Shown here: one piece after another, positions 1 to 38,066 of the stretch
Layout: every line of letters begins with the position of its first letter
How positions within the stretch are numbered: position 1 is the stretch's first letter
Assembly: GCA_031270325.1 (NCBI GenBank)
Contig: JAISXW010000005.1
Span: 1-38,066, forward strand
Direction of reading: 5' to 3'
Length of the DNA: 38,066 bases
Origin: Streptococcaceae bacterium
Lineage (GTDB): Bacteria > Bacillota > Bacilli > Lactobacillales > Streptococcaceae
Program-made: the position numbers and the translations under genes
The notes under the pieces: generated by a model
Told to the model about the DNA's origin: nothing
Database searches by the model: none
Seen by the model: only the letters and a program-made list of their open reading frames with translations

Positions 1-189
1 ATCAATACCCCAATCTTGGGAATAAAAGACCCGATGTTCGGTATCAATACCCCAATCTTGGGAATAAAAGACCCGATGTTCGGTATCAATACCCCAATCT
101 TGGGAATAAAAGACCCGAAGTTCGGTATTAATACCCCAATCTTGGCTATAAAAGACTCGATGTCGGGAATAAAAAAACTGACTTCGGCT
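1..189. repeat. 21-bp tandem array D (alternating two-unit type)
   Basis: Nine consecutive 21-bp units run from the first base, alternating two types so that the larger period is 42 bp. The first type carries the dyad CCCAA-TC-TTGGG; the second carries CCGA-TGT-TCGG (one copy CCGAA-G-TTCGG). Units decay toward the right edge: 148-168 and 169-189 are divergent, and 190-210 is a barely recognisable tenth copy that contributes the -35 box of the next gene. The array is cut by the window start, so its full length is unknown. It can be read as a repetitive 7-residue peptide pattern, but there is no ribosome binding site and no sign of selection for protein. Confidence 0.9.
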
Positions 190-204
190 GAAAAAGTCCT
201 AATA

Positions 205-233
205 TTGCCTATCGAGTTAATATGGGGTATACT
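205..233 (+). promoter_or_regulatory. Sigma-70 promoter of the HAD phosphatase gene
   Basis: TTGCCT (205-210), a 17-bp spacer and TATACT (228-233) form a good vegetative promoter. Transcription would start near 240, giving a leader of about 40 nt with AAAGGAG before the ATG at 280. The -35 box sits in the last degenerate unit of the adjoining repeat array. Confidence 0.7.
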
Positions 234-279
234 AACAATAAGGCGAGTTAAATGACAAACTTAACAAAAGGAGCTTGGT

Positions 280-1107
280 ATGAAAGAAATCGTACTGGAT
301 ATTGATGGAACACTACTTAACAGCGATAAAGTAATCACACCTAAAACAAAATCAGCGCTAATAGAAGCACAAGAAAGTGGTATTAAGGTCATTTTAGCAT
401 CGGGCAGATCGACAAATGGGATGCTGAAATTTGCGAAAGAGTTGCAGATGGCTCAATATGATGGATTATTGGTTGCTTACAACGGGGCAAGGGTTACGGA
501 TGTTCAAACGGGTGAGGTTTTATTTGATCAGTCCATTCCAAAAGGCTTAGCCCAATCGGTATTGGAAAAGTTGAAATCCTATGATTTAATCCCAATGATT
601 AACGATGATCAGTATATGTATGTTAATAATGTCTTTGGTGGGATGATTGATGTCTTTGGTAAACAAGCTAATATTATTGAATATGAATCACGTGGTGGGA
701 ACTTTTTACTTTGCGAACAAGAGGATTTAGCTAAATTTGCAGATTTTCCATTGAACAAGATTTTGGTTGCTGGAGAAGCGGATTATCTGCAAGCTGTTGC
801 AGATGAGATTTACGCCCCTTTCAAAGCACACTTAACGGGCGCCTTCTCTGCACCGTTCTATTTTGAATTTACCGCTAAAGGCATTGACAAAGCAAAAGCC
901 TTAGATGTGGTGAATACAAGGCTAGGTATTGAGGCGAAAGATGTTATTTCATTTGGCGATGCACAAAATGATGCGACCATTATCAACTATGCTGGTTTAG
1001 GTGTTGTAATGGGAAATGGCACAGAAGCGATGAAGGCGAGTGCAGACTTTGTCACAAGCTCTCACGATGAAGATGGGATTGCTGTGGCATTGGCTAAATT
1101 TTTATGA
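280..1107 (+). CDS. Cof-type HAD-IIB family sugar-phosphate phosphatase
   Basis: A 275-residue cytoplasmic hydrolase of the haloacid dehalogenase superfamily, Cof/YidA-like. Motif I is DIDGT (nucleophile D7, acid D9), the motif II region is ILASGRS near residue 40, and the C-terminal GDAQND holds the Mg-binding aspartates. The middle third (about 80-200) is the C2-type cap expected of HAD-IIB proteins. Length is normal for the family. The ATG at 280 follows AAAGGAG at good spacing. Family members dephosphorylate sugar phosphates, pyridoxal phosphate or FMN, and the substrate cannot be read from sequence. It is monocistronic, with its own promoter and terminator. Confidence 0.9.
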   Translation: MKEIVLDIDGTLLNSDKVITPKTKSALIEAQESGIKVILASGRSTNGMLKFAKELQMAQYDGLLVAYNGARVTDVQTGEVLFDQSIPKGLAQSVLEKLKSYDLIPMINDDQYMYVNNVFGGMIDVFGKQANIIEYESRGGNFLLCEQEDLAKFADFPLNKILVAGEADYLQAVADEIYAPFKAHLTGAFSAPFYFEFTAKGIDKAKALDVVNTRLGIEAKDVISFGDAQNDATIINYAGLGVVMGNGTEAMKASADFVTSSHDEDGIAVALAKFL

Positions 1108-1139
1108 GCGATTGGCGGGAGGGGTGGTAGATTAGACGA

Positions 1140-1167
1140 GGCTTGCAGGTTGATGGCAAGCCTTTTT
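1140..1167 (+). terminator. Intrinsic terminator after the HAD gene
   Basis: GGCTTGC (1140-1146) pairs with GCAAGCC (1156-1162) across a 9-nt loop and is followed by five T. It lies 33 bp after the HAD stop codon. Confidence 0.8.
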
Positions 1168-1201
1168 AGGGTGTTCCCATATGCGCACTCGGACACCGAT
1201 A

Positions 1202-1278
1202 GTCCTCCCCTCTAACCAACCAGGCCTTAGCAGTTGGCTATCACGGGGTTTGTTTTTCCGAAAATTCAGAGGGGAGAC
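1202..1278 (+). other. Foldable leader before the solute-binding lipoprotein gene
   Basis: The 222-bp gap between the HAD gene and the lipoprotein gene holds a nested inverted repeat. The outer arm is GTCCTCCCCTCT (1202-1213) against AGAGGGGAGAC (1268-1278), with one bulged C. The inner arm is CCAAC (1216-1220) against GTTGG (1232-1236). The upstream GGGAGGGG (about 1117-1124) could compete for the same CCTCCCC strand. I see no T-box AGGGTGG motif and recognise no known riboswitch. It may be a cis-regulatory RNA, but no clear promoter was found. Confidence 0.35.
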
Positions 1279-1329
1279 TTTGTGAGAGAATAGGAACAGG
1301 AGTAAAAATACCGATAGGAGCTATGTAGT

Positions 1330-2151
1330 ATGAAGAAATCAACAGCCATTTTGACAGGAGTGCTAGCTTTAGCTGCGGTTAGCTTACTTGCTGCCTGCAC
1401 GAGCCAAGCCAAGCCGGCAACAAGTCAGAAAAAGCAAGTCACAGAAATCACGGTCGGCACGGCTGGGATGCCCAAGCCTTTTTCTTATAAAACGGCAGAC
1501 GGCAAGCTGACAGGCTATGATATTGAACTAGCCAAGAAGATTGATGCCGCCTTGCCTGATTACAGCTTCAAGTTTGAAGTGACAGAGTTTCCGACAGTTC
1601 TTGCTAACCTAGATACTGGTCGCTTCCAACTGGCTGCCAATAACTTTGGCTACAAGGCTGAGCGAGCTGAAAAATACATTTATTCAGAGCCGATTGCTAG
1701 AAATCCTAGTGTGCTAGTGGTTAAAAAGGATAGCTCGATCAAGCAATGGGCCGATATTGCCGGCAAGAAAACAACCGCAGAGACAGGGACGACCTACGGC
1801 AATTCACTAGAAGAATTTAACAAAACAGCGGCGAAAGCAGTGAGTTTTGCCTATACCGAAGCGGATCTGACGACACAATTGCAACAGGTAGCAGATGGGC
1901 AACTTGATTTTAAATTACAAGATTTGGTCTCAGCGACACAAATCATCAAGGCAGCTGATCTCAAAGAGTTGAAGGTGATTGACATCAGTGATGAGCGCGA
2001 CAATCCCAACTCTCACTTCCTCTTTCCTAAAGATGCAGATCAAAAATTTGTCAAGGCAGTCAATCAACAAATCGAGAAGTTTAAAGCTGATGGCACACTC
2101 AAAGCCTTGTCTGAAAAAGAATTGGGTGGTGATTTTACACCAAGCAAATAA
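1330..2151 (+). CDS. Amino-acid ABC transporter substrate-binding lipoprotein
   Basis: A 273-residue extracellular solute-binding protein of family 3 (SBP_bac_3). The signal peptide ends in the lipobox LLAAC, so Cys23 would be lipid-anchored to the outer face of the membrane. The mature part opens with the usual ITVGTAGMPKPFSY strand and has the TGYDIELAKKI and TGRFQLAANNFG segments typical of cystine or polar amino-acid binders. No permease or ATPase gene is adjacent, so it is an orphan receptor or serves a transporter encoded elsewhere. The preferred ligand is unknown; cystine-type is only a guess from overall resemblance. AGGAG stands 7 nt before the ATG. A structured leader precedes it. 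Confidence 0.85.
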   Translation: MKKSTAILTGVLALAAVSLLAACTSQAKPATSQKKQVTEITVGTAGMPKPFSYKTADGKLTGYDIELAKKIDAALPDYSFKFEVTEFPTVLANLDTGRFQLAANNFGYKAERAEKYIYSEPIARNPSVLVVKKDSSIKQWADIAGKKTTAETGTTYGNSLEEFNKTAAKAVSFAYTEADLTTQLQQVADGQLDFKLQDLVSATQIIKAADLKELKVIDISDERDNPNSHFLFPKDADQKFVKAVNQQIEKFKADGTLKALSEKELGGDFTPSK

Positions 2152-2325
2152 GATTGCCCTCAATTTTATAGGCAGAATATTAGTCAAGCCCTAGCTTTTG
2201 CGATAGAATGAGAGTGTAAAGTAAATAGCTAGTTTGAATGTAATGGCAGTGATTGACGAACGTTCGCCAGCCAGTAGGTCAACGGCGTTGGTCAATCAGT
2301 TGAGACAGTTTAAGGAGAATAGAGT

Positions 2326-2937
2326 ATGGCACACACACTTCCAGAACTACCTTACGCATACGATGCGTTAGAACCGTTTTTTGATGAAGCAACGATGAGA
2401 TTGCACCACGACAAACACCATGCGACCTATGTCGCAAACCTGAATGCAGCGATTGATAAGCATCCAGAATTAGCTGACAAATCAGCACTTGAGCTGGTCA
2501 AAGACTTGGCTTCAGTCCCTGAAGATATTCGGACGGCCGTTCGCAACAATGGTGGCGGTCATGTCAACCATAGCTTTTTCTGGGAAATCTTAGCCCCTCA
2601 AGCAGGTGGCAACCCGACTGGTGAGATCGCTGATGCTATCTCTGCTCAATTTGGCAACTTTGAGGCTTTCAAGGAAGCTTTCAAAACGGCTGCAGTTGGT
2701 CGTTTTGGTAGTGGTTGGGCATGGCTAGTTGTCGATGGCAAGGGCGAACTCAAAGTGACATCGACTGCGAATCAAGATAACCCAATTTCAGATGGGGAAA
2801 TACCAGTGCTAGGCCTTGATGTTTGGGAACATGCTTACTACCTAAAATATCACAATGTCCGCCCGGACTATATCGCAGCTTTCTTTGAATTAGTCAACTG
2901 GGATAAAGTCAACGCACATTTTGCAGCAGCACAATAA
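2326..2937 (+). CDS. sodA: Superoxide dismutase (Mn/Fe family)
   Basis: A 203-residue cytoplasmic enzyme converting superoxide to hydrogen peroxide and oxygen. The metal ligands are visible as H27, H82, D165 (in [10 protein letters not shown]) and H169. [10 protein letters not shown] and the C-terminal [13 protein letters not shown] segment are family signatures. The Gly-Gly around residues 76-78 and Gln150 are the pattern of the manganese form. Length is standard. A good AAGGAGA site precedes the ATG. The 175-bp upstream gap includes a 10-bp palindrome CGAACGTTCG near 2258, a possible operator. It has a strong terminator and is transcribed alone. Confidence 0.95.
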
Positions 2938-2958
2938 AAGGTGACCCCAGTGTCACAT

Positions 2959-2988
2959 AAAAAGGATGATCTCAGGGTCATCCTTTTT
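2959..2988 (+). terminator. Intrinsic terminator of sodA
   Basis: AAAAAGGATGA (2959-2969) pairs perfectly with TCATCCTTTTT (2978-2988) across an 8-nt loop. Its A-rich left arm would let it work in both directions. Confidence 0.9.
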
Positions 2989-3051
2989 ATTATCCTGATC
3001 AAGCTCTATTTAGGGCTTTTTTGGGTGTGCTGCTGAGTTTTAAATTCCAAA

Positions 3052-3090
3052 CCTTACATTTTTGTAAGGGATTCGGCAAGAAATGTAAGG
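3052..3090. promoter_or_regulatory. Three-half-site operator candidate upstream of the WxL locus
   Basis: CCTTACA (3052-3058) is followed by TGTAAGG at 3063-3069 and again at 3084-3090. The first two half-sites form a palindrome with a 4-bp centre. The outer two form a 10-bp-arm palindrome, CCTTACATTT / AAATGTAAGG. The two TGTAAGG copies are exactly 21 bp apart, on the same helix face. TTGAAA at 3091-3096 could be a -35 box. The position, about 100 bp before the first WxL-locus gene, suits a regulator binding site; which regulator is unknown. Confidence 0.45.
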
Positions 3091-3190
3091 TTGAAAGGGA
3101 GATTTTATGTGAAAATAAGAGTATGGGTATAGACCAGTACGGGATTAGGGTCAAGCGGTAAGTTGTAAAGGTGAGGTGTGGTGCATTCAG

Positions 3191-4174
3191 ATGGCAAAAA
3201 AGATGATAGCGATACATATAGGCTTGGGACTTGGCGCATTCTTGCTCATGATTTTGTTCTTTGTAGTAAATATCAGGCAGACGACAGGAACGGAGAAAGT
3301 TATCAGAGTTAGTCGGCAGACCTCAAGATTGCCAGTTAATCGTAAGGTCAATCCTAAGCTAGTCAAGGCAAGTCCTGCGGCCTTTGGGGTGACGGTGATG
3401 CCATCGGACTTTCAGATTAATCCCAAGCTTTCTTATTATGACTTGTTGGTCAAACCAAAACAGGCGCTGGCGTTGGCGGTTACGATCCAAAATTCATCGG
3501 ATGAACCAGCAACATTTAGCCTAGCATTAAATACTGCTGGCACAAATGATAACGGTATCATTGATTATACTAGCGAGCAGCTTCCAAGTTTACCGGCAGG
3601 CTATCTGCGAGATACACCAGTCTTGGCTGACATCGCGAGGCTTGAGCAGGATATGGTTACCGTCTTACCTAAGGGGAGTGTGACGGTGCCGATCAAAATT
3701 CAAATGCCGGATCAGAGCTTTAAGGGGATGATTTTGGGCGCCATTCATGTCTTGAAATTGGCTGACGATAGGTCAGCAGGGCAAGCTGGTCTTAGCAACC
3801 GTTATGCCGTGGTCAAGGGGGTCGTCATCCGTGAAAGCTTAGAGCAAGTCCCTCCTAAGCTGATCCTCAATGCGCTTGACTATCAAAAGCAAGCCGATCA
3901 GCTGATGATTCAGGCGCAGTTGATCAATGCAAATGCTAGTCATATTGCGCATCTGAGCCTCAAAGTCACAGTCATTGAGCAAGCGACTGGCCAAGTCGTG
4001 TCTCGACAGGATAGTCAAGCGCTGGAGATGGCACCCAATTCGAGCTTTAAGTATCGTTTTGCTGTGGCATCAAGTCGGCGCTTAAAGGGAGACTATCGAC
4101 TGGCAATCACAGCATCAGACCAAGCTGGGCATAGCTGGCAGTTAGAAAAAGAGCTGACAGTGGTTGGGGATTAA
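3191..4174 (+). CDS. WxL-interacting protein (DUF916/DUF3324), N-terminally anchored
   Basis: About 327 residues. An uncleaved-looking hydrophobic segment near the N-terminus (about residues 5-26) is followed by an extracellular part. That part has a DUF916-like domain (FQINPKLSYYDLLVKPKQAL through the GMILGAIHVL strand) and a DUF3324-like domain to the end. In known WxL systems these proteins bind WxL proteins and peptidoglycan. It lacks the usual C-terminal membrane helix and basic tail, unlike its paralogue at 6894-8018. An in-frame GTG at 3176 overlaps the AAAGGTGAGG sequence, so ATG 3191 is preferred although the spacing is long. Its stop lies 19 bp before the next gene. Confidence 0.8.
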   Translation: MAKKMIAIHIGLGLGAFLLMILFFVVNIRQTTGTEKVIRVSRQTSRLPVNRKVNPKLVKASPAAFGVTVMPSDFQINPKLSYYDLLVKPKQALALAVTIQNSSDEPATFSLALNTAGTNDNGIIDYTSEQLPSLPAGYLRDTPVLADIARLEQDMVTVLPKGSVTVPIKIQMPDQSFKGMILGAIHVLKLADDRSAGQAGLSNRYAVVKGVVIRESLEQVPPKLILNALDYQKQADQLMIQAQLINANASHIAHLSLKVTVIEQATGQVVSRQDSQALEMAPNSSFKYRFAVASSRRLKGDYRLAITASDQAGHSWQLEKELTVVGD

Positions 4175-4193
4175 ATGGAAGAAAGGGAGTTGG

Positions 4194-4766: not shown

Positions 4767-4796
4767 ACAGGTATCAAGGGTAAGTTAGGAGGGAAA

Positions 4797-5030: not shown

Positions 5031-5033
5031 GAA

Positions 5034-8041: not shown

Positions 8042-8107
8042 TCAAGTGCAGGCCTGTATTTGCCAAAGTGTAGGCCTGTACTTACCAAAGTGTAGGCCTA
8101 CACTTTG
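8042..8107. repeat. 22-bp palindromic array A (three units)
   Basis: Three 22-bp units sit at 8042-8063, 8064-8085 and 8086-8107, all centred on AGGCCT. The third is a perfect 22-bp palindrome with half CAAAGTGTAGG; the other two have drifted from symmetry. The array lies in the 147-bp gap between the WxL-interacting protein gene and the HU-like gene. Confidence 0.85.
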
Positions 8108-8165: not shown

Positions 8166-8549
8166 ATGACGATTAATTATGTAGTTAAACCTAGGAAAAA
8201 TATCAATGACCCTTACGCACCCCAGCGTTATTACGCAATGGCCAAGGCGCGTGGGGATGTCAATTTGAAACAGCTGGGCAAGGAAATTACCCAGCGGTCG
8301 ACGGTCAACCATGCCGATACTTTGGCAGTTTTGGAAAGTTTGACCCAGCTCTTAGGGGAGCATATCATGGCCGGCGACATCGTGCGCCTGGGTGATTTGG
8401 GCGATTTTAGAATCACTCTATCCAGTGCCGGCACAGCGACAGCCGAAGAGTTCACATCGGCTCAAATCGAAAAAGCTAGAATTCGTTTTCGGCCTGGTCA
8501 AGACCTCCGAGAAGTCCTGCAAAATTTAACTTATAAAAAGGAGAAATAA
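8166..8549 (+). CDS. HU-like DNA-binding protein (HU_rel / TIGR01201 type)
   Basis: A 127-residue cytoplasmic protein resembling the putative histone-like DNA-binding family known mainly from Bacteroidales, rather than the about 90-residue canonical HU. Supporting segments are an N-terminal extension ending in PQRYYAMAKARGDVNLKQL, a helical RSTVNHADTLAVLESLTQLL, the HU-like turn GDIVRLGDLGDFRI, and a C-terminal KARIRFRPGQDLREVL. It starts after AAGGGAG. No signal peptide is present, which is odd within a locus of secreted proteins. It is followed by the CscD-like gene after 24 bp, so the two are probably cotranscribed. The family match is by eye; horizontal origin is possible but unproven. 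Confidence 0.75.
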   Translation: MTINYVVKPRKNINDPYAPQRYYAMAKARGDVNLKQLGKEITQRSTVNHADTLAVLESLTQLLGEHIMAGDIVRLGDLGDFRITLSSAGTATAEEFTSAQIEKARIRFRPGQDLREVLQNLTYKKEK

Positions 8550-12499: not shown

Positions 12500-12573
12500 G
12501 GTCTCATAGCTCAGCTGGATAGAGCATTCGCCTTCTAAGCGAACGGTCGCAGGTTCGAATCCTGCTGGGATCA
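12500..12573 (+). tRNA. tRNA-Arg (anticodon UCU)
   Basis: A full cloverleaf is readable: acceptor GGTCTCA pairing with TGGGATC plus discriminator A, D-arm GCTC-AGCTGGATA-GAGC, anticodon arm TTCGC-CTTCTAA-GCGAA with anticodon TCT, and T-arm CGCAGG-TTCGAAT-CCTGCT with the GTTCGAATCC consensus. CCA is not encoded. It lies 45 bp after the LCP gene, an arrangement conserved in relatives. Confidence 0.97.
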
Positions 12574-12584
12574 TATTAGCAAGC

Positions 12585-12617
12585 AAGACTTCTCACGGAT
12601 ATGGTGAGGGGTCTTTT
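12585..12617 (+). terminator. Terminator after tRNA-Arg
   Basis: AAGAC-TT-CTCAC pairs with GTGAG-GG-GTCTT around a 7-nt loop, followed by a T-run. It probably ends the tRNA transcript. Confidence 0.75.
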
Positions 12618-12619
12618 TG

Positions 12620-12795
12620 CAACTCGCCGGTAGGACTTGGTCAATTCATCGGCAAGACTTGGACAACTTGCCATGGTAAGTTGTCCAAAACACCATGGGA
12701 ACTTGGTCAAACTACCATGGTAATTTAGACAAACTACCATGGTAATTTGGTCAAACCACCATGGTAAGTTGACTCAAGTACCGCGAGACTTTGGG
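12620..12795. repeat. 22-bp palindromic array B (eight units)
   Basis: Eight contiguous 22-bp units start at 12620. The central ones are near-palindromes built as CAAACTACCATGGTAATTTG plus two linker bases; the outer units at each edge are degenerate. The array sits between a tRNA terminator and a convergent gene. Positions 12693-12749 match 31441-31497 in array C with one mismatch in 57 nt. It carries no plausible gene. Confidence 0.92.
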
Positions 12796-12805
12796 AAGTC
12801 AACCT

Positions 12806-13180
12806 CGAAGCCAGTCTGAGCACGACAAAGGGATGAAACTGATTGAACACTTTGTATTGGCAGACAAGGTATGATCATGCCGAGAGCTACATTCAGGGAT
12901 AACCTCTTGACCTCACACGAGCCATCACGCAATTGTCAAACATTTAGCCAACCCCCGCCCTCTCAGTCAGATAAATTTATTGTGGAGTGGAGAGCTTTGG
13001 CTCAAAACAGCTGTGGTATAGAGACAACTGGCGAGACCTTAGGCTCGACAGTTAGCCGGAAAAGCGGAGCTTTGTTTCCTCGGCATAGCCCGCCTCGTCA
13101 CAGTTTTTAAGCTTATGGTGGTGGTGTGTCACCACGCAGTTTTGAGCCAAAGGTTGGAACGTAACCATAGCTTTTAGGGT
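12806..13180. repeat. Dispersed folded intergenic repeat, copy 1
   Basis: Three blocks recur in the same order at 21174-21354: ACGACAAAGG to GAACAC (12822-12850), TAGGCTCGACAGTTAGC (13040-13056) and CCATAGCTTTTAGG (13165-13178). Within this copy CTTTGGCTCAAAAC (12995-13008) pairs perfectly with GTTTTGAGCCAAAG (13139-13152), enclosing smaller hairpins such as GTGGTG/CACCAC. The fold suggests an RNA or a structured mobile repeat. No promoter or coding gene is convincing in the roughly 480 bp between array B and the yidC terminator. Confidence 0.55.
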
Positions 13181-13233
13181 TGAAAATTTATGAAATGACC
13201 GTGCCAGCCAGCCTTAGCTGCTAAAGGTGCATC

Positions 13234-13273
13234 AAAAAAACGATAGGTCGTCTATCTCGCGAGCTATCGTTTT
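13234..13273 (-). terminator. Terminator of yidC
   Basis: AAAACGATAG (13237-13246) pairs with CTATCGTTTT (13264-13273). On the minus strand the stem is followed by seven T. Confidence 0.85.
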
Positions 13274-13280
13274 GTGTTTA

Positions 13281-14210
13281 TCAGCGGCGTTGTTTACCGG
13301 CATTTCGATTTTTCTTTGAGGTGTTGATGCCTGTGTTGAAGGCTTGTTTGGCTTTTGCCACGTCTTGAGGTGTGACATCTTTTAAACCGGCTGTTTTGAT
13401 AATCGGTGGATTTTCTTCAAATTCTCGGTCGATTTTTTCTCTTAAGTGCGGTTTGATCATGAAGGTGACAATCAGTTGTTGGATCACACCGAAGACCCCG
13501 CCGATTACCCAGTAGAGTGTGACACCAGCTGGTGAGCTGAAAGAGAAGAAGATAATCATCAAGGGACTCATGTACATCATCGTCTTCATCTGTTTCTTTT
13601 GCTCCTCATCAATCCCAATCGTTGAGATGTAGCTTTGGAGGAAATAGAAGACTCCGGCGATAATGGTTAAGATGAGACTCGATTTGCCCAAGTCAATGCC
13701 GAAGAAAGTAGCGGTAGCAATTCCCTTTGTATAACGTGCTGCAAAAAAGAGGGCAGAGAAGAATGGCATTTGAATCAAGAGAGGCAGACAGCCCATTGAT
13801 CCGAGCATGTTGACACCATTTTCTTTTTGAGCCGCCATCAGTTCAGCCTGAGCTGCCATTTTTTCTTCGTTTGAGGTGGCCTGTTTCATCTTGTTTTGAA
13901 TTGGCTCCAAAACAGGTTTAAGATAGCGCATCTTTTCTTGCATATAGCTAGATTTGTAGGCTTGATTCAGACCAAGTGGTAAGATAATCAAGCGCACAAT
14001 GAAGGTTACCAAGATAATGGCAAAGCCGAAACCAAAGCCGAGGTTGTGGGCGAAGAATTCAACGGCAGCACTCATCGGTTTGACGAGAATGTTGTAAACC
14101 CAGCCTTGACCGGTTGGTTGACCATTTTTTGTTTGGACACAGCCGGTCAAAAAGAGTAGGGCTGTGAGCATCAAGCTAGAGAGTAGCAGGCGTTTAGTTG
14201 ATTTTTTCAA
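13281..14210 (-). CDS. yidC: Membrane protein insertase YidC (YidC2/OxaA2-like)
   Basis: A 309-residue lipoprotein insertase that places proteins into the membrane alone or with SecYEG. It has a lipoprotein signal with LTGC (Cys24) and a first core helix containing the essential groove arginine R73 (TFIVRLIILPL). A charged cytoplasmic hairpin of about 85-130 and four further helices follow. The tail is basic, ending KKNRNAGKQRR. The start is TTG with AGGA 5 nt before it. It is not next to rnpA, and the positive tail fits the second YidC paralogue of streptococci and lactococci. It lies downstream of pgm with its own extended -10 promoter. Confidence 0.92.
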   Translation of the reverse strand: MKKSTKRLLLSSLMLTALLFLTGCVQTKNGQPTGQGWVYNILVKPMSAAVEFFAHNLGFGFGFAIILVTFIVRLIILPLGLNQAYKSSYMQEKMRYLKPVLEPIQNKMKQATSNEEKMAAQAELMAAQKENGVNMLGSMGCLPLLIQMPFFSALFFAARYTKGIATATFFGIDLGKSSLILTIIAGVFYFLQSYISTIGIDEEQKKQMKTMMYMSPLMIIFFSFSSPAGVTLYWVIGGVFGVIQQLIVTFMIKPHLREKIDREFEENPPIIKTAGLKDVTPQDVAKAKQAFNTGINTSKKNRNAGKQRR

Positions 14211-18963: not shown

Positions 18964-19086
18964 CTTGAATTCCTCTTTTCTTATGATGACCATATTTTGT
19001 CACACTTTGTCAGGAAATTCAAGTCTTAGCTCAATGCTGCGGGGTTTGAGCAGGCTCTGATGTGACCATGCATGCCTGAAAAAAGA

Positions 19087-19464
19087 GTCTCGCTTGCATG
19101 AATAAAAGTCGCACTTGAATGATAAAGAGTCGGCGTTGGATAAAAAAGAGTCGCCGTCGAGCAAAAAAGATGCGGCGTTGGGCAAAAAAGAGTGTCCGTC
19201 GTGTAAAAAAGATGCGGCGTTGATCAAAAAAGAGTATCCGTCGGGTAAAAAAGATGCGGTGTTGAACAAAAACGAGTCGCCGTCGTGTAAAAAAGATGCG
19301 CCGTTGATCAAAAACGAGTCGCCGTCGTGTAAAAAAGATGCGGCGTTGGGCAAAAACGAGTCGCCGTTGATTAAAAAAGAGTGTCCGTCGTGTAAAAAAG
19401 ATGCGGCGTTGATCAAAAAAGAGTGTCCGTCGTGTAAAAAAGATGCGACGTCGATCAAAAAAGA
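19087..19464. repeat. 21-bp tandem array E with phased A-tracts (18 units)
   Basis: Eighteen 21-bp units start at 19087, most ending in AAAAAAGA. They alternate mainly between a GTCGCCGTCGTGT-type and a TGCGGCGTTGATC-type head, so the dominant period is 42 bp. A partial unit continues to about 19480. Because 21 bp is two helical turns, the A5-A6 tracts fall on the same face, which predicts strong intrinsic curvature. Unlike the other arrays there is no good dyad in the unit. Long reading frames cross it on both strands but only as 7-residue repeats of low-complexity Lys/Ser/Asp. Confidence 0.92.
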
Positions 19465-19479
19465 TGTGGCGTTGGGCAG

Positions 19480-19637: not shown

Positions 19638-19725
19638 ATATGCTAACAAACAGTCAAGCTGTTAGCATATTGTTTTTGACTTGGTGGGAATGATATGCTA
19701 ACATTGAAGTAAGTTGTTAGCATAT
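19638..19725. promoter_or_regulatory. abiE promoter with two identical-arm operators
   Basis: Two inverted repeats with identical 11-bp arms, ATATGCTAACA and TGTTAGCATAT, lie at 19638-19670 and 19693-19725, 55 bp apart centre to centre. Between and within them is a promoter: TTGACT (19676-19681), 17-bp spacer, TAACAT (19699-19704), with the -10 inside the left arm of the second repeat. AbiEi antitoxins are known to repress their own operon by binding paired inverted repeats, and this layout fits that well. Confidence 0.85.
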
Positions 19726-19743
19726 TGTTTAGGAGGTGGTTTG

Positions 19744-20325
19744 ATGGGGCAAGTAAGTGAGTATATTGATCGGAATAAAGGGTTTGTGACTTTTAGTCAA
19801 GTTAAAGAATCCGGAGTTCCTTATCGAGTGATTAAGAAGATGTTAGATGAGGGGACGATTGAAAAAGATGAGCCGGGGATTTATCGACTGCCTGATGCTT
19901 ATGTAGATGAGTTATTTGTCTTGCAGTATCGCTATCCCAAAGGTGTTTATGCGCTTGAGACGGCTTTGTGGTTGCAAGGGCTATCCTTGACCGTGCCGTC
20001 TGAACCTGTCATGAGCTTTCCCTATGGGACCAATACCAAGCTGCTCAAAGCTGCGGGTCTAAAACCAGTGATTTTACGGGCTAACTATGATGTAGGAATT
20101 GTTGAGGTAGCGACTCCTGCGGGTCAACAAGTCAGAGTCTATGAAATAGAAAGAACACTGGTTGAAATGCTTCGACCGATATATAAGTCGGATGTGCAAA
20201 TCATTGGTCCGGCTTTTAAGGCTTATACTAATAGCGGTCGCATAGACTATGCCAAGCTATTCAAGTATGCCAAACTATTTAAGGTTCAGGAAAAAGTGCA
20301 AGCTTATTTGGAGGTTTTAGAGTGA
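19744..20325 (+). CDS. abiEi: Type IV antitoxin AbiEi, transcriptional autorepressor
   Basis: About 193 residues. ATG 19744 follows AGGAGG at 7 nt; an earlier in-frame start overlaps the operator and is rejected. The N-terminal domain (MGQVSEYIDRNKGFVTFSQV and the following PYRVIKKMLDEGTIEKDEPGIY) is the winged-helix AbiEi_4-type DNA-binding domain. The rest (ALETALWLQGLS, then ERTLVEMLRP) is the antitoxin domain. It neutralises AbiEii and represses the operon at the upstream repeats. The stop overlaps the GTG start of abiEii in a GTGA junction, so translation is coupled. Confidence 0.92.
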   Translation: MGQVSEYIDRNKGFVTFSQVKESGVPYRVIKKMLDEGTIEKDEPGIYRLPDAYVDELFVLQYRYPKGVYALETALWLQGLSLTVPSEPVMSFPYGTNTKLLKAAGLKPVILRANYDVGIVEVATPAGQQVRVYEIERTLVEMLRPIYKSDVQIIGPAFKAYTNSGRIDYAKLFKYAKLFKVQEKVQAYLEVLE

Positions 20326-21200
20326 GATATAGCAATGCCAATAGCTTCAAAGCAAAAATTAAAAATATAGCAAAAGTAAAAGGCGTTCCGCCGCAACAGG
20401 TTCAACAAAATTATCTAATTGAGCAAATACTCCGTAAGATTGCATCTAGTGATTATAAAGATAGTTTTATAGTTAAAGGAGGGTATCTGATTAGCAATAT
20501 TATCGGTATTGATAAACGGACGACGATGGATTTGGACGTGACATTGAAAGGTATGGCATTATCGGAAGACAAGATACGGGCTATCTTTGATGAAGTGTTC
20601 AAAAGTTCTGATGGCGATGGTTTTTATTTTGAGATTGACGCACTTCAATCTATTCGGAGGGATGACATCTACGGTGGTTTTGAATTAAAAATTAAAGCTC
20701 AATTTGATACTTTACGAGAAGTTGTATTTATTGATGTCACAACAGGTGACAAGATCACTCCAAGGGAAATTGAATTTTCGATTCAATCGATTTTTTCAGA
20801 AGATGACATCAAAATATTTTCTTATAACTTAGAAACGGTTCTGGCTGAAAAATTGGAAGCAATTATCAGTAGAGGTGAGGGGTCAACTAGACCGCGTGAT
20901 CGTTATGATATGTTTACGATTTGGAAATTACAAAAAGAGACAGTTGATTTGATAACTTTGAGAGAAGCGCTAGTTAATACAGTGACAAAACGAGGTACTA
21001 TGGTCGAGCTTAAGAATTGGCAAGAGCAGCTTGCATCAATTTATCAATCAGACTATCAACGTCAACTGTGGAGGAACTATCAAAGAACTTTTAAATACGC
21101 TACTGAAATCAGTTTTGAGGCGTCGGTTGATGTGGTAGCAGCAGTACTAAAAGAGTTAAAACAAACTGACTTAGCCAGCCCCAATACGACAAAGGCATGA
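20322..21200 (+). CDS. abiEii: AbiEii nucleotidyltransferase toxin
   Basis: A 292-residue toxin of the AbiEii/AbiGii (MenA-like) nucleotidyltransferase family, giving phage abortive infection. Motif I is KGGYLIS (G53, G54) and the metal-binding acidic pair is TMDLDV (D70, D72). ETVLAEKLEAIISRGEGSTRPRDRYDM contains the conserved lysine and the third acidic region. The GTG start overlaps the antitoxin stop. The final nine codons (about 21174 onward, LASPNTTKA) lie inside a dispersed intergenic repeat, so the natural C-terminus may have been replaced when the island inserted. The catalytic part is intact. Confidence 0.92.
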   Translation: MRYSNANSFKAKIKNIAKVKGVPPQQVQQNYLIEQILRKIASSDYKDSFIVKGGYLISNIIGIDKRTTMDLDVTLKGMALSEDKIRAIFDEVFKSSDGDGFYFEIDALQSIRRDDIYGGFELKIKAQFDTLREVVFIDVTTGDKITPREIEFSIQSIFSEDDIKIFSYNLETVLAEKLEAIISRGEGSTRPRDRYDMFTIWKLQKETVDLITLREALVNTVTKRGTMVELKNWQEQLASIYQSDYQRQLWRNYQRTFKYATEISFEASVDVVAAVLKELKQTDLASPNTTKA

Positions 21201-31212: not shown

Positions 31213-31521
31213 AAACTTCCCATGGGAACTTGGACAAACTCCCATGAGGATTTGAGCAAACTCCCATGGGGATTTGAGTAAACTCCCATGAGGATTTGGA
31301 CAAACTCTCATGGGGATTTGAGTAAACTCCCATGAGGATTTGAGTAAACTCCCATGAGGATTTGAGTAACCCCCCCATGGGGATTTGAGTAAACTCTCAT
31401 GAGGATTTGGACAAACTCCCATGGGGATTTGGACAACTTCCCATGGGAACTTGGTCAAACTCCCATGGTAATTTAGACAAACTACCATGGTAATTTGCCT
31501 CACTTACCATGGTAACTCAGC
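31213..31521. repeat. 22-bp palindromic array C (14 units)
   Basis: Fourteen units run from 31213; all are 22 bp except one of 23 bp (31367-31389, an extra C). The core is CCCATGRGG or CCATGG, flanked by CAAACT or TAAACT on the left and GATTTGAG or AATTTAGA on the right. Variants partly keep the dyad (CTCATGAG, CCCATGGG, ACCATGGT). The right end, 31441-31497, is nearly identical to part of array B, in the same orientation. It lies between divergent prs and the lipoprotein gene. Frames on the minus strand merely repeat a 22-residue pattern. Confidence 0.93.
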
Positions 31522-31595
31522 TCAAACATCAAGGCAAAAGAAAAATAAGGCACTTCGGCAGGAGGAGGGGCTTTAATAGCCTCTCAGTAAGGGTC

Positions 31596-32863: not shown

Positions 32864-32888
32864 AGATAAGCTTGAATAGATGAACTCT

Positions 32889-32911
32889 AAAACGCTGACA
32901 AGCGTTTTTTT
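32889..32911 (+). terminator. Terminator of the lipoprotein gene
   Basis: AAAACGCT (32889-32896) pairs with AGCGTTTT (32901-32908), with a GACA tetraloop, and the T-run continues to 32911. Confidence 0.85.
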
Positions 32912-32986
32912 GCTTGAGTAAAGTCATGGTTAGCCGAGCAGTTAGCAGACTAAATTGACATTAGTCTAAATATGTGGCTACTTTTG

Positions 32987-33077: not shown

Positions 33078-33140
33078 GAGTCAAGCGTGCAATTGCCAGC
33101 TTTGATTGATGGTATCCGCGTGCGGGAAGAAAGGATACGA

Positions 33141-33902: not shown

Positions 33903-33942
33903 TGGTTTACACGCAAGACGAGACTGAAAGGAGGGAAGATAG

Positions 33943-34536
33943 ATGGGATTTTGGCGAGAAGCGTTCGAGGTTGTGAAAGAAAATGATCCGGCAGCACGTT
34001 ATAATGTTGACATATTGCTGACTTATCCGGGCGTCAAGGCGCTTGCCGCACATAAGGTCTCGCATTTTTTATGGCAACATCATTTAAAATTATTGGGGCG
34101 GATGCATTCGCAATTCTGGCGTTTTTTGACACAAATCGAAATTCATCCCGGTGCTAAGATTGCGAATGGTGTCTTTATTGATCATGGTTCTGGTCTTGTC
34201 ATTGGCGAAACAGCGGAGGTCGAAACGGGTGTCAAGCTATATCACGGCGTGACTTTAGGTGGTACAGGAAAAGATAAAGGCAAGAGACATCCAAGTGTCA
34301 GACAAGGCGCCTTGATTTCTGCACATGCGCAGTTGCTCGGTCCAATTGAGATTGGGGCAAATGCTAGGGTCGGTGCTAGTGCCGTTGTGACCAAAGATGT
34401 GCCAGAAGCGGTGACGGTTGTGGGCGTACCGGCTAAAATTGTCCGAGTACATGGTGTCGCAAGTCCAGAACGTGAACGTACAAAACTGGAGCAGGAACGT
34501 CGTGTGAGTTTCTATGATCACATGAGTGGGATTTAG
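33943..34536 (+). CDS. cysE: Serine O-acetyltransferase
   Basis: A 197-residue cytoplasmic enzyme transferring acetyl from acetyl-CoA to serine, the first step of cysteine synthesis. An N-terminal helical part (about 1-65, with NDPAARYNVDILLTYPGVKAL) leads to the left-handed beta helix with hexapeptide repeats and the signatures EIHPGAKI, DHGSGLVIGETA and GVTLGGTGKDKGKRHP. The short C-terminal tail is of the Gram-positive type. It lies in the order sseB-cysE-cysS, linking cysteine supply to its charging onto tRNA. Confidence 0.95.
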   Translation: MGFWREAFEVVKENDPAARYNVDILLTYPGVKALAAHKVSHFLWQHHLKLLGRMHSQFWRFLTQIEIHPGAKIANGVFIDHGSGLVIGETAEVETGVKLYHGVTLGGTGKDKGKRHPSVRQGALISAHAQLLGPIEIGANARVGASAVVTKDVPEAVTVVGVPAKIVRVHGVASPERERTKLEQERRVSFYDHMSGI

Positions 34537-34566
34537 CTAGCTGGCTTTGGCAAACAGGAGAAGGAC

Positions 34567-35940
34567 ATGATTAAACTTTATAATACCCTAACACGTGAGA
34601 AAGAAGACTTTGTGCCATTGGAAGCCGGTAAGGTTAAGATGTATGTCTGCGGACCGACCGTCTATAATTATATCCACATTGGCAATGCGCGCTCAGTTGT
34701 TGCTTTTGACACCATTCGTAAATACTTAGAATACCGTGGCTTTGAGGTGACTTTCATCTCTAACTTTACAGATGTCGACGATAAAATCATTCAGGCAGCC
34801 AATGAAGCCAAGCTGCCAATTGAAACGATTGTCGAGACTTATATCCAAGCTTTCTATGCGGATACAGCGGCACTTGGCGTTAAGCCGGCAACACGAAATC
34901 CACGTGTGCTTGAATTTATGCCTGAAATTATCGCTTTTATTCAAGAGTTAATCACTAAAGGCTTTGCTTATGTATCTAAAGGCGATGTGTTTTTCCGAGT
35001 TAAAAGATTCACAGACTATGGTCGATTGGCCAATAAAAACTTAGCTGAATTGGCAGCAGGTGCATCCGGCAGAACGGCTACCGTGGTAGTTGATAAGGAA
35101 GACCCGCTTGATTTTGCCCTTTGGAAATCAAGTAAGGCTGGTGAACCTTCTTGGGAAAGTCCGTGGGGTGCCGGTCGACCGGGTTGGCATATCGAATGTT
35201 CGGTCATGGCAACCAGTATCTTAGGTGATACGATTGATATTCACGGTGGCGGTGCGGATTTGGAATTTCCGCATCATACCAATGAAATTGCCCAATCCGA
35301 AGGCAAAACAGGTCAGAAATTTGTCAACTATTGGCTGCACAATGGGTTTGTGACTGCGGCAGATGGCGAAAAAATGTCTAAATCCTTGGGGAACTTTAAA
35401 ACCGTCCATGACATGTTGGAAGTAATCGACGGTCAAATCTTGCGCTTTTTCTTGGTTAGCCAACATTATCGCAAACCCCTTGCCTTTTCAGACGATACGA
35501 TTAAGGATGCTGAAAATAATTTTAAGAAAATCAAAAATGCTTACGAGCAGCTCAAGTTTGAGATTGAGAAGAATCCTGTCGCAGCACAAGTATCAGATCC
35601 CAAAGTTTCGGATTTCCGGCAAGCTTTTATGCGTGAAATGGACGATGATTTCAATATCTCCAACGGTCTAACTGTCTTTTATGACTTGATCAAACATACG
35701 AATAATGGACATTTTTCCGTAGCTGCTCTTGCATTATTTGATGAGATTTTAACGGTTATTGGGATTCAATTTGCGGCGGCAGAGTTATTAGATGCTGAGA
35801 TTGAACAACTGATGAAGGATCGGCAAGTGGCAAGAAACAATCGAGACTTTGCTTTGGCAGATCAAATTCGTGATGACTTAAAGGCGCAAGGGATTTCTTT
35901 ATTGGATACACCGGATGGTGTGAGGTGGACACGTGACTGA
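34567..35940 (+). CDS. cysS: Cysteinyl-tRNA synthetase
   Basis: A 457-residue class I synthetase. Zinc ligand C28 is in [18 protein letters not shown], which also holds the HIGH motif as HIGN (37-40). HIECSVM and [20 protein letters not shown] supply the other zinc ligands, and KMSKSLGN is the second ATP motif. The C-terminal anticodon-binding helical region ends [20 protein letters not shown]. It follows cysE by 30 bp with ACAGGAGAAGG before the ATG. Its stop overlaps the mrnC GTG start by 8 bp. Confidence 0.97.
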
Positions 35941-36334
35941 ATTTCGAGCTGATTTATTAAATGGTATCGCTTTGGCATATGCTGGGGATGCCGTTTATGA
36001 AGTGTTTGTTCGTGATTATTTATTGCGGCAGGGGATTACAAAGCCCGGAGAGCTACAAAAGAATGCGGTAAAGTTTGTCAGTGCCAAAGCACAAGCCTAT
36101 TTGATTTCTGAGATGATAAAAGATGCCGTGTTGACAGATGAGGAGTTGGTTTATTTTAAACGCGGTCGCAATGCCCATAGTAAAACGACAGCAAAAAATA
36201 CAGATGTCGTGACTTATCGGATTTCGACAGGTTTTGAGGCGGTGTTTGGGTTTAATCATTTGACACAAAAAAATGAACGGGTTCATGAGTTGGCAGAGTA
36301 TTGCATTCAAAAAGTATCTGAGCAAAATATATGA
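35933..36334 (+). CDS. mrnC: Mini-ribonuclease 3
   Basis: A 133-residue RNase III-like enzyme without a dsRNA-binding domain, which matures 23S rRNA precursors. The catalytic signature is [18 protein letters not shown] with D19 and E23, and [13 protein letters not shown] and [12 protein letters not shown] complete the fold. GTG 35933, preceded by GAGGTGG and overlapping the cysS end, is the start. The cysS-mrnC coupling is conserved across Firmicutes. Confidence 0.93.
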
Positions 36335-36380
36335 AAAATCCCGATGTTTTATGTAGAATAGTTTATTAAGAGGTTGGGAT

Positions 36381-36752
36381 ATGTATAGAGTAGTTGAAAT
36401 GCGCGGTGATAATGAACCGTGGTGGTTTTTTGAAGATTGGCGAAAGGATATTGTCGCCAAATTTGAATTTGATGATTTTTATGAAGCATTAAAGGTTTAC
36501 AAGCAGGAGTGGCAGCGTTTAGCCCGTGCTTATCCGGAATTTAGAAGCCAAGAAGATTTTCTAGCAGCCTTTTGGACTAAATCGGACACGCGTTGGTGTT
36601 TGGAATGTGATGAAAACTTGCAGCAATATCATGGTTTAATGCTTTTGGAAGACTGGCATCCGGTGGAAACGTTTGAATACCGACCATCGTATGCCAAAGC
36701 AACAGGTTTTCTGCCACATCAATTTTGTCGCTTTAAGGGATTAGTTGACTGA
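36381..36752 (+). CDS. DUF1033 family protein
   Basis: A 123-residue cytoplasmic protein of DUF1033, recognised by MYRVVEMRGDNEPWWFFEDW, a central YKQEWQRLARAYPEF and the cysteine pair in WCLECDENLQQYHGL. The CxxC might bind a metal. Its role is unknown; orthologues occur in streptococci and lactococci. Spacing from mrnC is 46 bp with AAGAGGTTGG before the ATG. The last codons overlap the terminator. Confidence 0.85.
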   Translation: MYRVVEMRGDNEPWWFFEDWRKDIVAKFEFDDFYEALKVYKQEWQRLARAYPEFRSQEDFLAAFWTKSDTRWCLECDENLQQYHGLMLLEDWHPVETFEYRPSYAKATGFLPHQFCRFKGLVD

Positions 36753-36764
36753 CTAATCCTTTTT
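36738..36764 (+). terminator. Terminator at the end of the DUF1033 gene
   Basis: GGATTAGT (36738-36745) pairs with ACTAATCC (36752-36759), followed by five T. The left arm and loop lie within the last codons and stop of the gene. Confidence 0.85.
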
Positions 36765-36832
36765 CTTATTATGACTAAACACCCTTATGTTACCTAGATT
36801 TGTAGCGAGTTCAAAAGCTCTGAGCTAATTTG

Positions 36833-36861
36833 TTTACAAAGGAAAAGTAGTGTGCTAGAAT
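36833..36861 (+). promoter_or_regulatory. Promoter of the nitroreductase gene
   Basis: TTTACA (36833-36838), a 17-bp spacer and TAGAAT (36856-36861), with TGC before the -10. The leader is about 105 nt and includes TAGGAGA before ATG 36975. Confidence 0.75.
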
Positions 36862-36974
36862 TACAGATGTAAACATGAGGCGAGGGTATTAAAGTGTTCC
36901 GATTGCATGGCAAGTCGTGAACCCACTTAGAAGACGTTTTCTAAAAAATATTTTTAAAAATAGGAGAACACATT

Positions 36975-37583
36975 ATGTCATTCTTACAATCATTAGCAAA
37001 TCGTCGCTCTAACTATGTTTTGGGCAAAGATGTGGATGTTGCCAAAGCAACAGAAACAATTAAAGAAGCAGTGAAACAATCACCTTCAGCTTTTAATAGC
37101 CAAACCTCACGTGTGTTGATCTTGGCCGGTGCTGAACATGATAAACTTTGGCATGAGATTGTTGCCACAGATTTGAAAGCTGAAATGGATCGTCAAGGTG
37201 TACCTGAATCAGCTTGGGAAGGTACTAAAGGGAAACTTGATAGCTTTGCGGCTGCTGGTTTGACAGCACTTTTCTTTGAAGATACTGACGTTGTCAAAGG
37301 GCTTCAAGAGCAATTCCCGCTTTATGCGGATAACTTCCCTGTTTGGTCTGAACAGTCAACAGGTATCGCTTCTGTTAATGCGTGGGTCGCATTGAGTGAC
37401 ATTGGTTTGGGTGCTAATTTACAACATTACAACCCAGTTATCAATGATACGATTGCTAAAACGTATGGTATCCCAGCATCATGGAACCTTCGGGGCCAAC
37501 TTGTAGTCGGATCACCTGAGTCTGAAGTAGCGCCTAAAGACTTCATGGCTGATGAAGATCGTTTCAAAGTATTCGGTGCCTAA
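36975..37583 (+). CDS. Nitroreductase family FMN-dependent oxidoreductase
   Basis: A 202-residue cytoplasmic flavoenzyme. MSFLQSLANRRSNYVLGKDV opens with the FMN-contacting arginines, QSPSAFNSQTSRVLIL is the next FMN-binding segment, and GLGANLQHYNPVI and SWNLRGQLVVG near the end are typical of the HBN-type (fatty-acid response/oxidative stress) nitroreductases of lactic acid bacteria. It reduces nitro compounds or quinones using NAD(P)H; the natural substrate is unknown. It is transcribed alone from its own promoter. Confidence 0.92.
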   Translation: MSFLQSLANRRSNYVLGKDVDVAKATETIKEAVKQSPSAFNSQTSRVLILAGAEHDKLWHEIVATDLKAEMDRQGVPESAWEGTKGKLDSFAAAGLTALFFEDTDVVKGLQEQFPLYADNFPVWSEQSTGIASVNAWVALSDIGLGANLQHYNPVINDTIAKTYGIPASWNLRGQLVVGSPESEVAPKDFMADEDRFKVFGA

Positions 37584-37593
37584 AAAGTGAATC

Positions 37594-37637
37594 AATCCAA
37601 AAAAGCTAATCATCTTATGTGGTTAGTTTTTTGGATT
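37594..37637 (+). terminator. Terminator of the nitroreductase gene
   Basis: AATCCAAAAAAGCTAA (37594-37609) pairs with TTAGTTTTTTGGATT (37623-37637), with one bulged G. The stem contains its own T-tract. Confidence 0.8.
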
Positions 37638-37666
37638 GCAAACCAAATAAGAGTTAAAGATATGCT

Positions 37667-37752
37667 AAAAAGTTGCTTTTACGGCAGCTTTTTATTTGAG
37701 TTCATAGCTGTACCGTAAGCGGGAAATCAGATGACGCTCCCGCTTGCTTTCT
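37667..37752 (+). other. Two successive hairpins, possible small RNA or tandem terminators
   Basis: AAAAAGTTGC (37667-37676) pairs with GCAGCTTTTT (37684-37693), with one G-U pair. AAGCGGGA (37717-37724) pairs perfectly with TCCCGCTT (37738-37745), followed by GCTTTC and a T-run. No good promoter is visible. They end directly at the start of array F. Confidence 0.4.
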
Positions 37753-37758
37753 TTTTTT

Positions 37759-38066
37759 GTGGAACTCGTTCTATATTTCGTAGAACCTGTTCTATTATTT
37801 GTAGAACTTGTTCTATTTTTTGTAGAACTTGTTCTATTATTTGTAGAACTTGTTCTATTATTTGTAGAACTTGTTCTATTATTTGTAGAACTTGTTCTAT
37901 TATTTGTAGAACTGGTTTTATTATTTATAGAACGAGTTCTATTATTTATAGAACTCGTTCTATTTTTTGTAGAACTCGTTCTATTTTTTGTAGAACTCGT
38001 TCTATTTTTTGTAGAACTCGTTCTATTTTTTGTAGAACTCGTTCTATTTTTTGTAGAACTCGTTCT
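37759..38066. repeat. 21-bp palindromic array F (14 units plus a partial)
   Basis: Units of exactly 21 bp start at 37759 and run to the window end, where the array is cut. Each has the dyad AGAAC-NN-GTTCT; the centre varies (CT, TT, TC, GA) while the arms are almost invariant, with one broken copy at 37906. The spacer changes from TATTATTTG in the left units to TATTTTTTG in the right units, giving phased T-tracts there. No gene is present. Confidence 0.95.

Follow-up and report, generated by a model that had tools for sequence, protein, structure and literature searches.

What holds the length of a repeat unit constant when its sequence changes? The question is raised by six arrays of contiguous 21- or 22-bp units lying between the genes of a 38,066-nucleotide contig of a Streptococcaceae bacterium (GCA_031270325.1, JAISXW010000005.1; the window). 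The initial annotation attributed them to one shared design, with selection for helical spacing rather than ordinary replication slippage. All six arrays were recovered by TRF where they had been reported, and their units follow one another without unique spacers, which rules out a CRISPR array. The features of the window are:

1..189, + strand: array 1, 21-bp unit with a 42-bp higher-order unit (42 = 2 x 21), truncated by the contig start; TRF 1-163, score 291
8042..8107, + strand: array 2, 22-bp unit, 2.5 copies, AAGTGTAGGCCT family (9 sites in the sample); TRF 8044-8099
12620..12795, + strand: array 3, 22-bp unit, CCATGG family (24 sites in the sample); TRF 12657-12794, period 22/44
12823..13166, + strand: copy of the D element, lying 29 bp from array 3 and detected as a repeated segment of depth 22; HMM match 12940-13168
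19073..19478, + strand: array 4, 21-bp unit, AAAAAAGAGTCGCCG family; TRF period 21/42
31213..31524, + strand: array 5, 22-bp unit, CCATGG family, about 14 copies; TRF period 22/66
37749..38066, + strand: array 6, 21-bp unit, TAGAACNNGTTCTA family, 15.2 copies by TRF, truncated by the contig end

The arrays sit among ordinary chromosomal genes; arrays 3 and 5 form one sequence family and arrays 1, 2, 4 and 6 four others. By eye, the left edge of array 3 (12620-12656) consists of degenerate units. ORFs occur on both strands at one place in array 4, as a unit length that is a multiple of 3 permits. The array 1 family has one further site in our sample (L130:1-268) and the array 6 family occurs at 18 places, some of which, at contig ends, are possibly halves of one array. 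The BLAST anchors flanking array 5 are 641 bp apart here and 290-296 bp apart in four relatives, indicating that the corresponding site in congeners lacks the array. Among 59 genomes searched the array 5 sequence was found only in its own, as were two other array families among 12, and viral contigs held no related arrays for the two patterns searched.

Our sample of the source genome, a draft that is 70.6% complete, comprised 41 stretches totalling 695,247 bases, and 36 stretches from congeners (694,238 bases) served as the genus control. Arrays were detected with TRF, calls were merged into regions and each region was assigned a base period. Many of the stretches from the source genome had been selected for matches in earlier searches, so array density in the sample is overestimated; the scarcity of other periods is unaffected. 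Among the 124 merged regions 50 had a period of 21, 51 a period of 22 and 23 another period. When only arrays of at least 3 copies were counted the numbers were 45, 39 and 10, the last being eight arrays of period 4, one of period 5 and one of period 15. The excess of 21/22-bp periods that the initial annotation had named as a genome-wide check is therefore present in the 695 kb (84 of 94 arrays), and the congeners held no 21- or 22-bp array of at least 3 copies and three 21-bp arrays of about 2 copies. As had been claimed, the arrays are intergenic: 83 of the 84 lie outside ORFs of at least 150 aa, which make up 77% of the sequence (ORFs that were more than 40% array had been removed beforehand as spurious). 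Constancy of period across differing sequences was likewise borne out, since 101 arrays group into 27 families when at least 16 identical positions are required (14 being single arrays), counts that vary with the cut-off; at 15 or more identical positions, 44 arrays of the 21-bp type form 12 families. The period lock thus upholds part of the shared design, but there are two classes with different placement. The 21-bp class has at least 12 families and longer arrays of up to 35 copies in blocks of 60-730 bp. The 22-bp class has few families and often adjoins a BOX-like dispersed repeat, the D element.

An artefact of assembly or binning is extremely improbable. The assembly is a draft whose contigs frequently terminate inside arrays (in seven contigs sampled end to end, 7 of 14 ends do so), but array 5 stands between orthologues of conserved genes and arrays occur in many contigs. 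Nor are they copies of one misassembled stretch, since 2330 of 13949 unit positions differ from the consensus of their own array.

Ordinary slippage with unequal exchange, acting on a founder period that arose by chance and was inherited as the families diverged, would fit the higher-order units of 42, 44, 63, 66 and 84 bp, a slippage-type turnover, as well as the small degree of similarity that 21-bp families still share (10.39 versus 10.08 ± 0.11). We nevertheless agree with the initial annotation in disfavouring slippage, which we hold to be improbable, because other periods are almost absent, the congeners sampled have no such arrays, the 21-bp sites are evenly spaced (see below) and units seldom gain or lose a base. 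Off-register gaps per mismatch in tiled-consensus alignments were 13/1752 for 21-bp arrays, 29/1029 for 22-bp arrays and 53/672 for D copies, and the ratios from plain BLAST differ less (0.034-0.073 for arrays, 0.091 for D copies). In three of four families tested, private single-unit changes also avoid certain columns (TAGAAC, P 7e-13; CCATGG, P 2e-4; GAAAAT, P 0.004); the GAGTTC family gave no such constraint (P 0.29).

A central dyad had been reported in five of the six arrays. Local palindrome P values against 150 shuffled units were 0.04, 0.27, 0/150, 0.99, 0.06 and 0/150 for arrays 1 to 6, which leaves three arrays at the 0.05 level and three without significance. The proposed excess of dyads over shuffled controls likewise held in part: of 14 families, 7 had dyads that exceeded those of column-permuted units (P<=0.01) and the other 7 had none of significance, and for 4 of the 14 cis-compensating changes reached their peak at the centre of the dyad. 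A universal dyad design was rejected, as whole-unit self-complementarity was significant (0.05) in only 13 of 62 arrays and local palindromes were significant in just 27% of 22 arrays and 20% of 40 arrays. As for helical spacing, 21 equals 2 x 10.5, from which a helical register may be inferred, but in the arrays G+C is not phased at 10.5 bp, half the unit length, and AA/TT phasing is ambiguous, the low harmonics of A-runs being raised in general in a check for DNA curved by phased A-tracts.

Dyads of this kind could also act in RNA, as tandem hairpins or terminators co-transcribed with the adjacent genes, and some units do consist of a hairpin and a T-run. Arrays are moreover oriented along the leading strand as judged by GC skew (44 versus 15 of 59 scorable arrays, a count that omits the reference array of each family and arrays with a strand difference of fewer than 3 matches), a bias that is weak in the largest 21-bp family (10 versus 7). 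We regard this explanation as very unlikely: arrays lie in convergent (12/43), divergent (11/42) and co-directional (35/213) gaps alike, several families have no significant dyad, and an Rfam search of the window yielded tRNA only. Stem mismatches were as often G-T as A-C overall (140 versus 141, uneven by family) and so give no sign of RNA pairing.

The strongest signal, beyond the reach of the window alone, is that 21-bp sites are evenly spaced, about 18 kb apart. Arrays less than 1 kb apart being counted as one site, the 21-bp sites of a first contig set (n=19) had a CV of 0.428 against a null of 0.860 (P 0.0005). Evenness was predicted beforehand for a replication set and found there (n=13, CV 0.369 versus 0.757, P 0.003), the 21-bp class having been picked post hoc from all arrays and the replication contigs having already been partly seen. 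Both sets together gave a mean of 17.9 kb and a CV of 0.407 versus 0.840 at random (n=32, 0/4000), and all 14 contigs sampled end to end, 10 of them with at least 2 sites, gave 0.468 versus 0.902 (n=36, 0/4000 with a gap-based null and also with a uniform one). With a merging distance of 2 kb, the arrays of the first set taken as one group were less clearly even (P 0.0235), and the 21-bp class was unaffected. The 22-bp arrays, almost all from the first set, were not evenly placed (CV 0.838 versus 0.825, P 0.57), nor was the D element (P 0.52-0.65).

Even spacing could result from a mechanism that copies arrays, and arrays have indeed been copied about, given that the same families occur at many sites. 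Mobile satellites with target immunity, copied to new intergenic sites and barred from the vicinity of an existing array, would be evenly spaced without any host function. Families are widely dispersed (the TAGAAC family is in 18 places), array 5 is missing from the equivalent site in relatives and no two merged 21-bp sites are closer than 3.8 kb. We consider this explanation unlikely, though a serious contender. Known target immunity is element-specific, whereas the evenness spans different families (27 of 32 neighbouring pairs). Close neighbours are not strictly barred, as eight contigs held four pairs less than 1 kb apart, two of them across families. No transposase is linked to the arrays, Y1, the sole family searched, having 0 matches in the 70.6%-complete source assembly, and the column constraint and dyad compensation are left unexplained.

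The D element is a dispersed mosaic repeat with 76 HMM matches in the 695 kb, in some places on both strands. It adjoins CCATGG arrays at several loci, and of the 21 D sites in four contigs 10 have an array within 400 bp (4.3 under the null, P 0.0035). Together with the 22-bp class it has the make-up of a BOX-like repeat, a composite element that is dispersed and encloses a tandem module. The 22-bp arrays may thus be largely the tandem module of such an element, spreading irrespective of spacing.

Our best guess is that the source genome, which is Lactococcus-like and of the Pseudolactococcus type, carries two superposed repeat systems. We tentatively favour, at somewhat less than even chances, a reading of the 21-bp arrays as interchangeable elements of chromosome architecture and of the 22-bp arrays as a BOX-like module. 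A 21-bp block would stay in register with B-DNA, 21 bp being the smallest whole-number unit able to do so, and on these often dyad-rich blocks a nucleoid protein acting as a dimer, or a topoisomerase that wraps DNA, might assemble cooperatively. Roughly one block would be maintained every 18 kb, of whichever family, which would make the families interchangeable: selection would favour the presence of a phased array at intervals, and unit turnover and copying between sites would renew the sequences. The binding partner, its cooperative assembly and the architectural role are putative. An HU-HIG protein adjoining array 2 was rejected as the partner, since congener G006 has four matches to it at three places, yet no array of at least 3 copies in a 40-kb sample.

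A bolder possibility, which we hold with more doubt, is that interchangeable 21-bp satellite blocks partition the chromosome about every 18 kb and that their geometry and spacing are read, not their sequence. Any of some 12 unrelated sequences would then work as long as its unit spans exactly two B-DNA turns, and the reader, be it the cell or a protein that wraps DNA or forms filaments, would operate a ruler-like domain system. We know of no counterpart for such a system; to our knowledge, bacterial chromosome markers are all read by sequence. The 21-bp arrays hint at an undescribed way to mark or organise a bacterial chromosome. If the geometric reading is true, arrays alike only in unit length, symmetry tendency and spacing would imply a mechanism that senses DNA geometry, and how chromosomal domains are set would become directly testable. 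The source genome also provides a bacterial counterpart to eukaryotic satellite DNA, with the congeners lacking arrays as a natural control.

In literature searched mostly outside subscription journals, we found no chromosomal 21/22-bp arrays described as evenly spaced or period-locked. The remark in the initial annotation that no named system fits does not hold for the 22-bp unit, which recalls the iterons of lactococcal Rep_3 (RepB) theta plasmids: these too are contiguous intergenic 22-bp direct repeats whose sequence varies by replicon. The arrays are iteron-like but fail the iteron tests applied here. In the genus, 7 of 10 Rep_3 loci carry contiguous 22-bp repeats of 3.5-4.6 copies in six different sequences, and a lactococcal plasmid paper describes the same arrangement and links it to plasmid-specific recognition by RepB. 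Each family might have a dedicated reader, an initiator or centromere-binding protein from lost or unbinned plasmids, and persist as decoys or relics. This appears quite unlikely. Contiguous direct repeats of about 22 bp are found in the 22-bp class only and the 21-bp class departs from them; iterons lie beside a rep gene, whereas the 21-bp arrays lie beside chromosomal genes, are evenly spaced and reach 35 copies. Rep_3 had 0 matches in the 70.6%-complete source assembly, and hence no origin beside a Rep gene was found. In a plasmid collection searched with arrays 5 and 6 only, array 5 had no match and array 6 two weak AT-rich ones.

Minisatellites or VNTRs are likewise tandem, turn over in length and form higher-order repeats, but here the period is fixed, the 21-bp class is evenly spaced and indels are few. 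BIMEs consist of REP units, which form one sequence family and are larger than 21 bp. Like the arrays studied here, these enterobacterial elements are palindromic-unit arrays between genes; they have been linked to gyrase, which BIME-2 bind, and possibly to genome organisation (PMC6379681). For the present arrays the lack of 10.5-bp G+C phasing lends gyrase binding no support. REP elements are associated with a REP tyrosine (Y1) transposase, for which the incomplete source assembly had 0 matches. A single palindromic unit shared by a family is not what we found, the 101 arrays falling into 27 families, and the 21-bp unit is locked across at least 12. The pneumococcal BOX element (boxA-boxB(n)-boxC), a species-restricted intergenic mosaic repeat with a variable tandem module (PMC3049150), resembles by description the D element with its 22-bp arrays. 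BoxB is one module type and several 22-bp families occur here; BOX has no bearing on the 21-bp class, and the 22-bp class with the D element would be a novel form of BOX-like repeat, a sort already known.

The six arrays reported in the initial annotation were all recovered by TRF, nearly at the same coordinates and with a base period of 21 or 22 bp. Their sequences had been described as unrelated or only partly related; the arrays at 1-189, 8042-8107, 19073-19478 and 37749-38066 (arrays 1, 2, 4 and 6) are four separate families, and those at 12620-12795 and 31213-31524 (arrays 3 and 5) belong to one 22-bp family, CCATGG (families are named by part of the unit sequence). The window is the entire contig C15, with arrays at both ends, in a draft assembly of 1,471,609 bases and 40 contigs that is 70.6% complete. 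When named genomes were searched with one of its proteins, the four loci obtained were all from Lactococcus (reticulitermitis, raffinolactis, insecticola, hodotermopsidis). BLAST with array 5 gave 79 matches within the genome itself, a count that includes both strands and overlapping places, and none in 58 other genomes.

We ran the tandem-repeat check of periods on part of the genome, 41 stretches totalling 695,247 bases, many picked for matches to known families and others blindly. TRF returned 124 regions after merging, with period 21 in 50, period 22 in 51 and other periods in 23. Among arrays of at least three copies, which cover 3.1% of the sample (a figure inflated by how the stretches were picked), 45 had period 21, 39 period 22 and ten another, so that the shared period claimed for the window dominates the sample as well (84 versus ten). 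The genus controls (36 stretches, 694,238 bases) contained no 21/22-bp array of at least three copies and three 21-bp arrays of about two copies each. No 21/22-bp arrays were found in 120,000 bases (six stretches) from the family's other genera, and a single 21-bp array (3.7 copies) in 20 further family and order stretches (347,527 bases). Tetranucleotide tracts that are both long and perfect (CGTT or TGTC, 10-17 copies) were also observed at four places of the sample (L numbers are sampled stretches); the one within an open frame may be phase variable.

L054:5781-5848, tetranucleotide tract
L048:13993-14032, tetranucleotide tract
L055:14403-14447, tetranucleotide tract inside a 432-aa open frame
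L057:91-143, tetranucleotide tract

Arrays occupy co-directional (35/213), convergent (12/43) and divergent (11/42) gaps, a distribution that speaks against their acting as terminators or promoters. At the array 5 site, the flanking BLAST anchors are 641 bp apart here versus 290-296 bp in four congeners lacking the array. Around array 3, where a tRNA and a copy of the D element also lie (12500-13300), gene order is unlike that of any of the 11 congeners; the flanks are on different contigs there or, in two single-contig genomes, about 0.75 and 0.85 Mb apart. Two features lie downstream of arrays:

8166-8549, gene for a DNA-binding HU-HIG protein (Pfam PF18291), immediately downstream of array 2
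19714-21200, toxin-antitoxin pair of AbiEi/AbiEii type, downstream of array 4

Among the 11 congeners searched, HU-HIG relatives were found only in G006 (four matches at three places).

The two periods define distinct classes. The 22-bp arrays have a median of 7.2 copies, versus 12.8 for the 21-bp arrays, fall into fewer families (five families in 27 arrays versus 12 in 44), and are commoner in some contigs, with 23 in 419 kb (C10, C29, C30, C15) versus 4 in 302 kb (C24, C11, C12, C25). They are often adjoined by the D element, a mosaic repeat that is dispersed and about 280 bp long, with 76 HMM matches in own-genome stretches and none in genus stretches; when 12 genomes of the genus were searched at the DNA level, only its own carried it, apart from a single 24-bp match in one other. 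In four contigs, 10 of 21 D sites were within 400 bp of an array (4.3 expected, P 0.0035). Some D elements contain two or three copies of a 45-bp tandem unit reminiscent of boxB of BOX elements:

L041:5658-5751, 45-bp tandem unit
L051:17500-17592, 45-bp tandem unit
G000:C29:26140-26276, 45-bp tandem unit

In two places (L040:6-754 and L128:4357-4839) two arrays of the GAGTTC family lie in inverted, facing orientation, separated by 6 bp and about 110 bp.

Alignment to the tiled consensus of each gave 13 off-register gaps against 1752 mismatches for 21-bp arrays, 29 against 1029 for 22-bp arrays and 53 against 672 for D copies; pairwise BLAST gave a smaller gap contrast (arrays 0.034-0.073, D copies 0.091). 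Private changes of single units in the TAGAACNNGTTCTA family often fall in the 2-bp dyad spacer (29/71) and rarely in its arms; certain unpaired T's are likewise spared. They avoid TT, AAA and CATG in CCATGG and certain columns in GAAAAT (P 0.004), and show no significant column pattern in GAGTTC. Dyads, which had been claimed for five of the six arrays, exceeded column-permuted units in half of the 14 families (7, at P<=0.01), and within arrays the match between the two arms of a dyad is better than that with arms of other units. This excess peaks at the best dyad centre, of 42-44 possible, in four of 14 families (three 21-bp families and CCATGG), ranks second there in one further family and lies between 6th and 41st place in the remaining nine. 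Dyads are thus genuine and maintained in some families but are not a feature of all. Over nine families, stem mismatches total 140 for G-T and 141 for A-C, although individual families lean both ways (50 v 13 in one, 8 v 31 in another), and so give no overall sign of RNA pairing.

In the first set, four complete contigs, the placement of the 21-bp sites was unexpectedly regular; arrays closer than 1 kb were merged as one site, likewise in the null. No evenness was seen in this set for 22-bp sites (n=19 in the 22-bp test, 18 from this set) or D elements. We predicted evenness in writing and then tested it on four other contigs, parts of which had already been inspected (n=13, CV 0.369 versus null 0.757, P 0.003). 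All eight together gave n=32, a mean of 17.9 kb and CV 0.407 versus 0.840 (0/4000), and adding six short contigs gave n=36 and CV 0.468 versus 0.902 (0/4000, gap-based and uniform nulls). Evenness of the 21-bp sites persists with 2-kb merging (P 0.002, 0.0035 and 0/4000), but that of all arrays jointly is then weaker in the first set (P 0.0235). Four 21-bp pairs in the eight contigs are less than 1 kb apart, two of the same family and two of differing families. As 27 of 32 neighbouring sites differ in family, the spacing rule is not family-specific exclusion; the chief rival explanation is a copying system whose immunity would act across families and so make the spacing. We favour a reading of DNA geometry as the best fit, because the blocks are free in sequence, locked in period, poor in indels and evenly placed. 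The shortest unit of whole base pairs that stays in phase with a 10.5-bp helix is 21 bp, and units of 10, 11 or 22 bp drift; 21-bp blocks would be read by something sensing geometry over 60-730 bp. We tentatively propose a role in chromosome architecture with a cooperative or wrapping partner, giving it slightly less than an even chance.

The statement that no named system in lactic acid bacteria fits overlooked one: contiguous 22-bp repeats occur at 7 of 10 Rep_3 loci of the genus (3.5-4.6 copies, six sequences), and are likewise described for lactococcal plasmids in PMC3138775. These repeats show that a two-turn unit of free sequence can serve for protein binding in these bacteria. The arrays here, however, are chromosomal, include a 21-bp class and differ in spacing, and the 70.6% complete assembly gave no Rep_3 match; on the tests possible they do not belong among the Rep_3-plasmid repeats. 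Two congeners have, about 1 kb from a Rep_3 gene, tandem repeats of 11 bp that are nearly perfect (about 7-8 copies of CTTGGTATTTA; L148:404-478, L151:393-478), a possible partition site. For the 21-bp class the nearest idea is BIME-2 with gyrase, as presented in PMC6379681; the 10.75-bp G+C periodicity reported there for gyrase sites was not seen in the arrays, and they show increased AA/TT power at 10.5 bp (21.3 versus 11.2), an effect that A-runs might equally cause. BOX elements, as described in PMC3049150, are a fair model for the D element and its 22-bp module.
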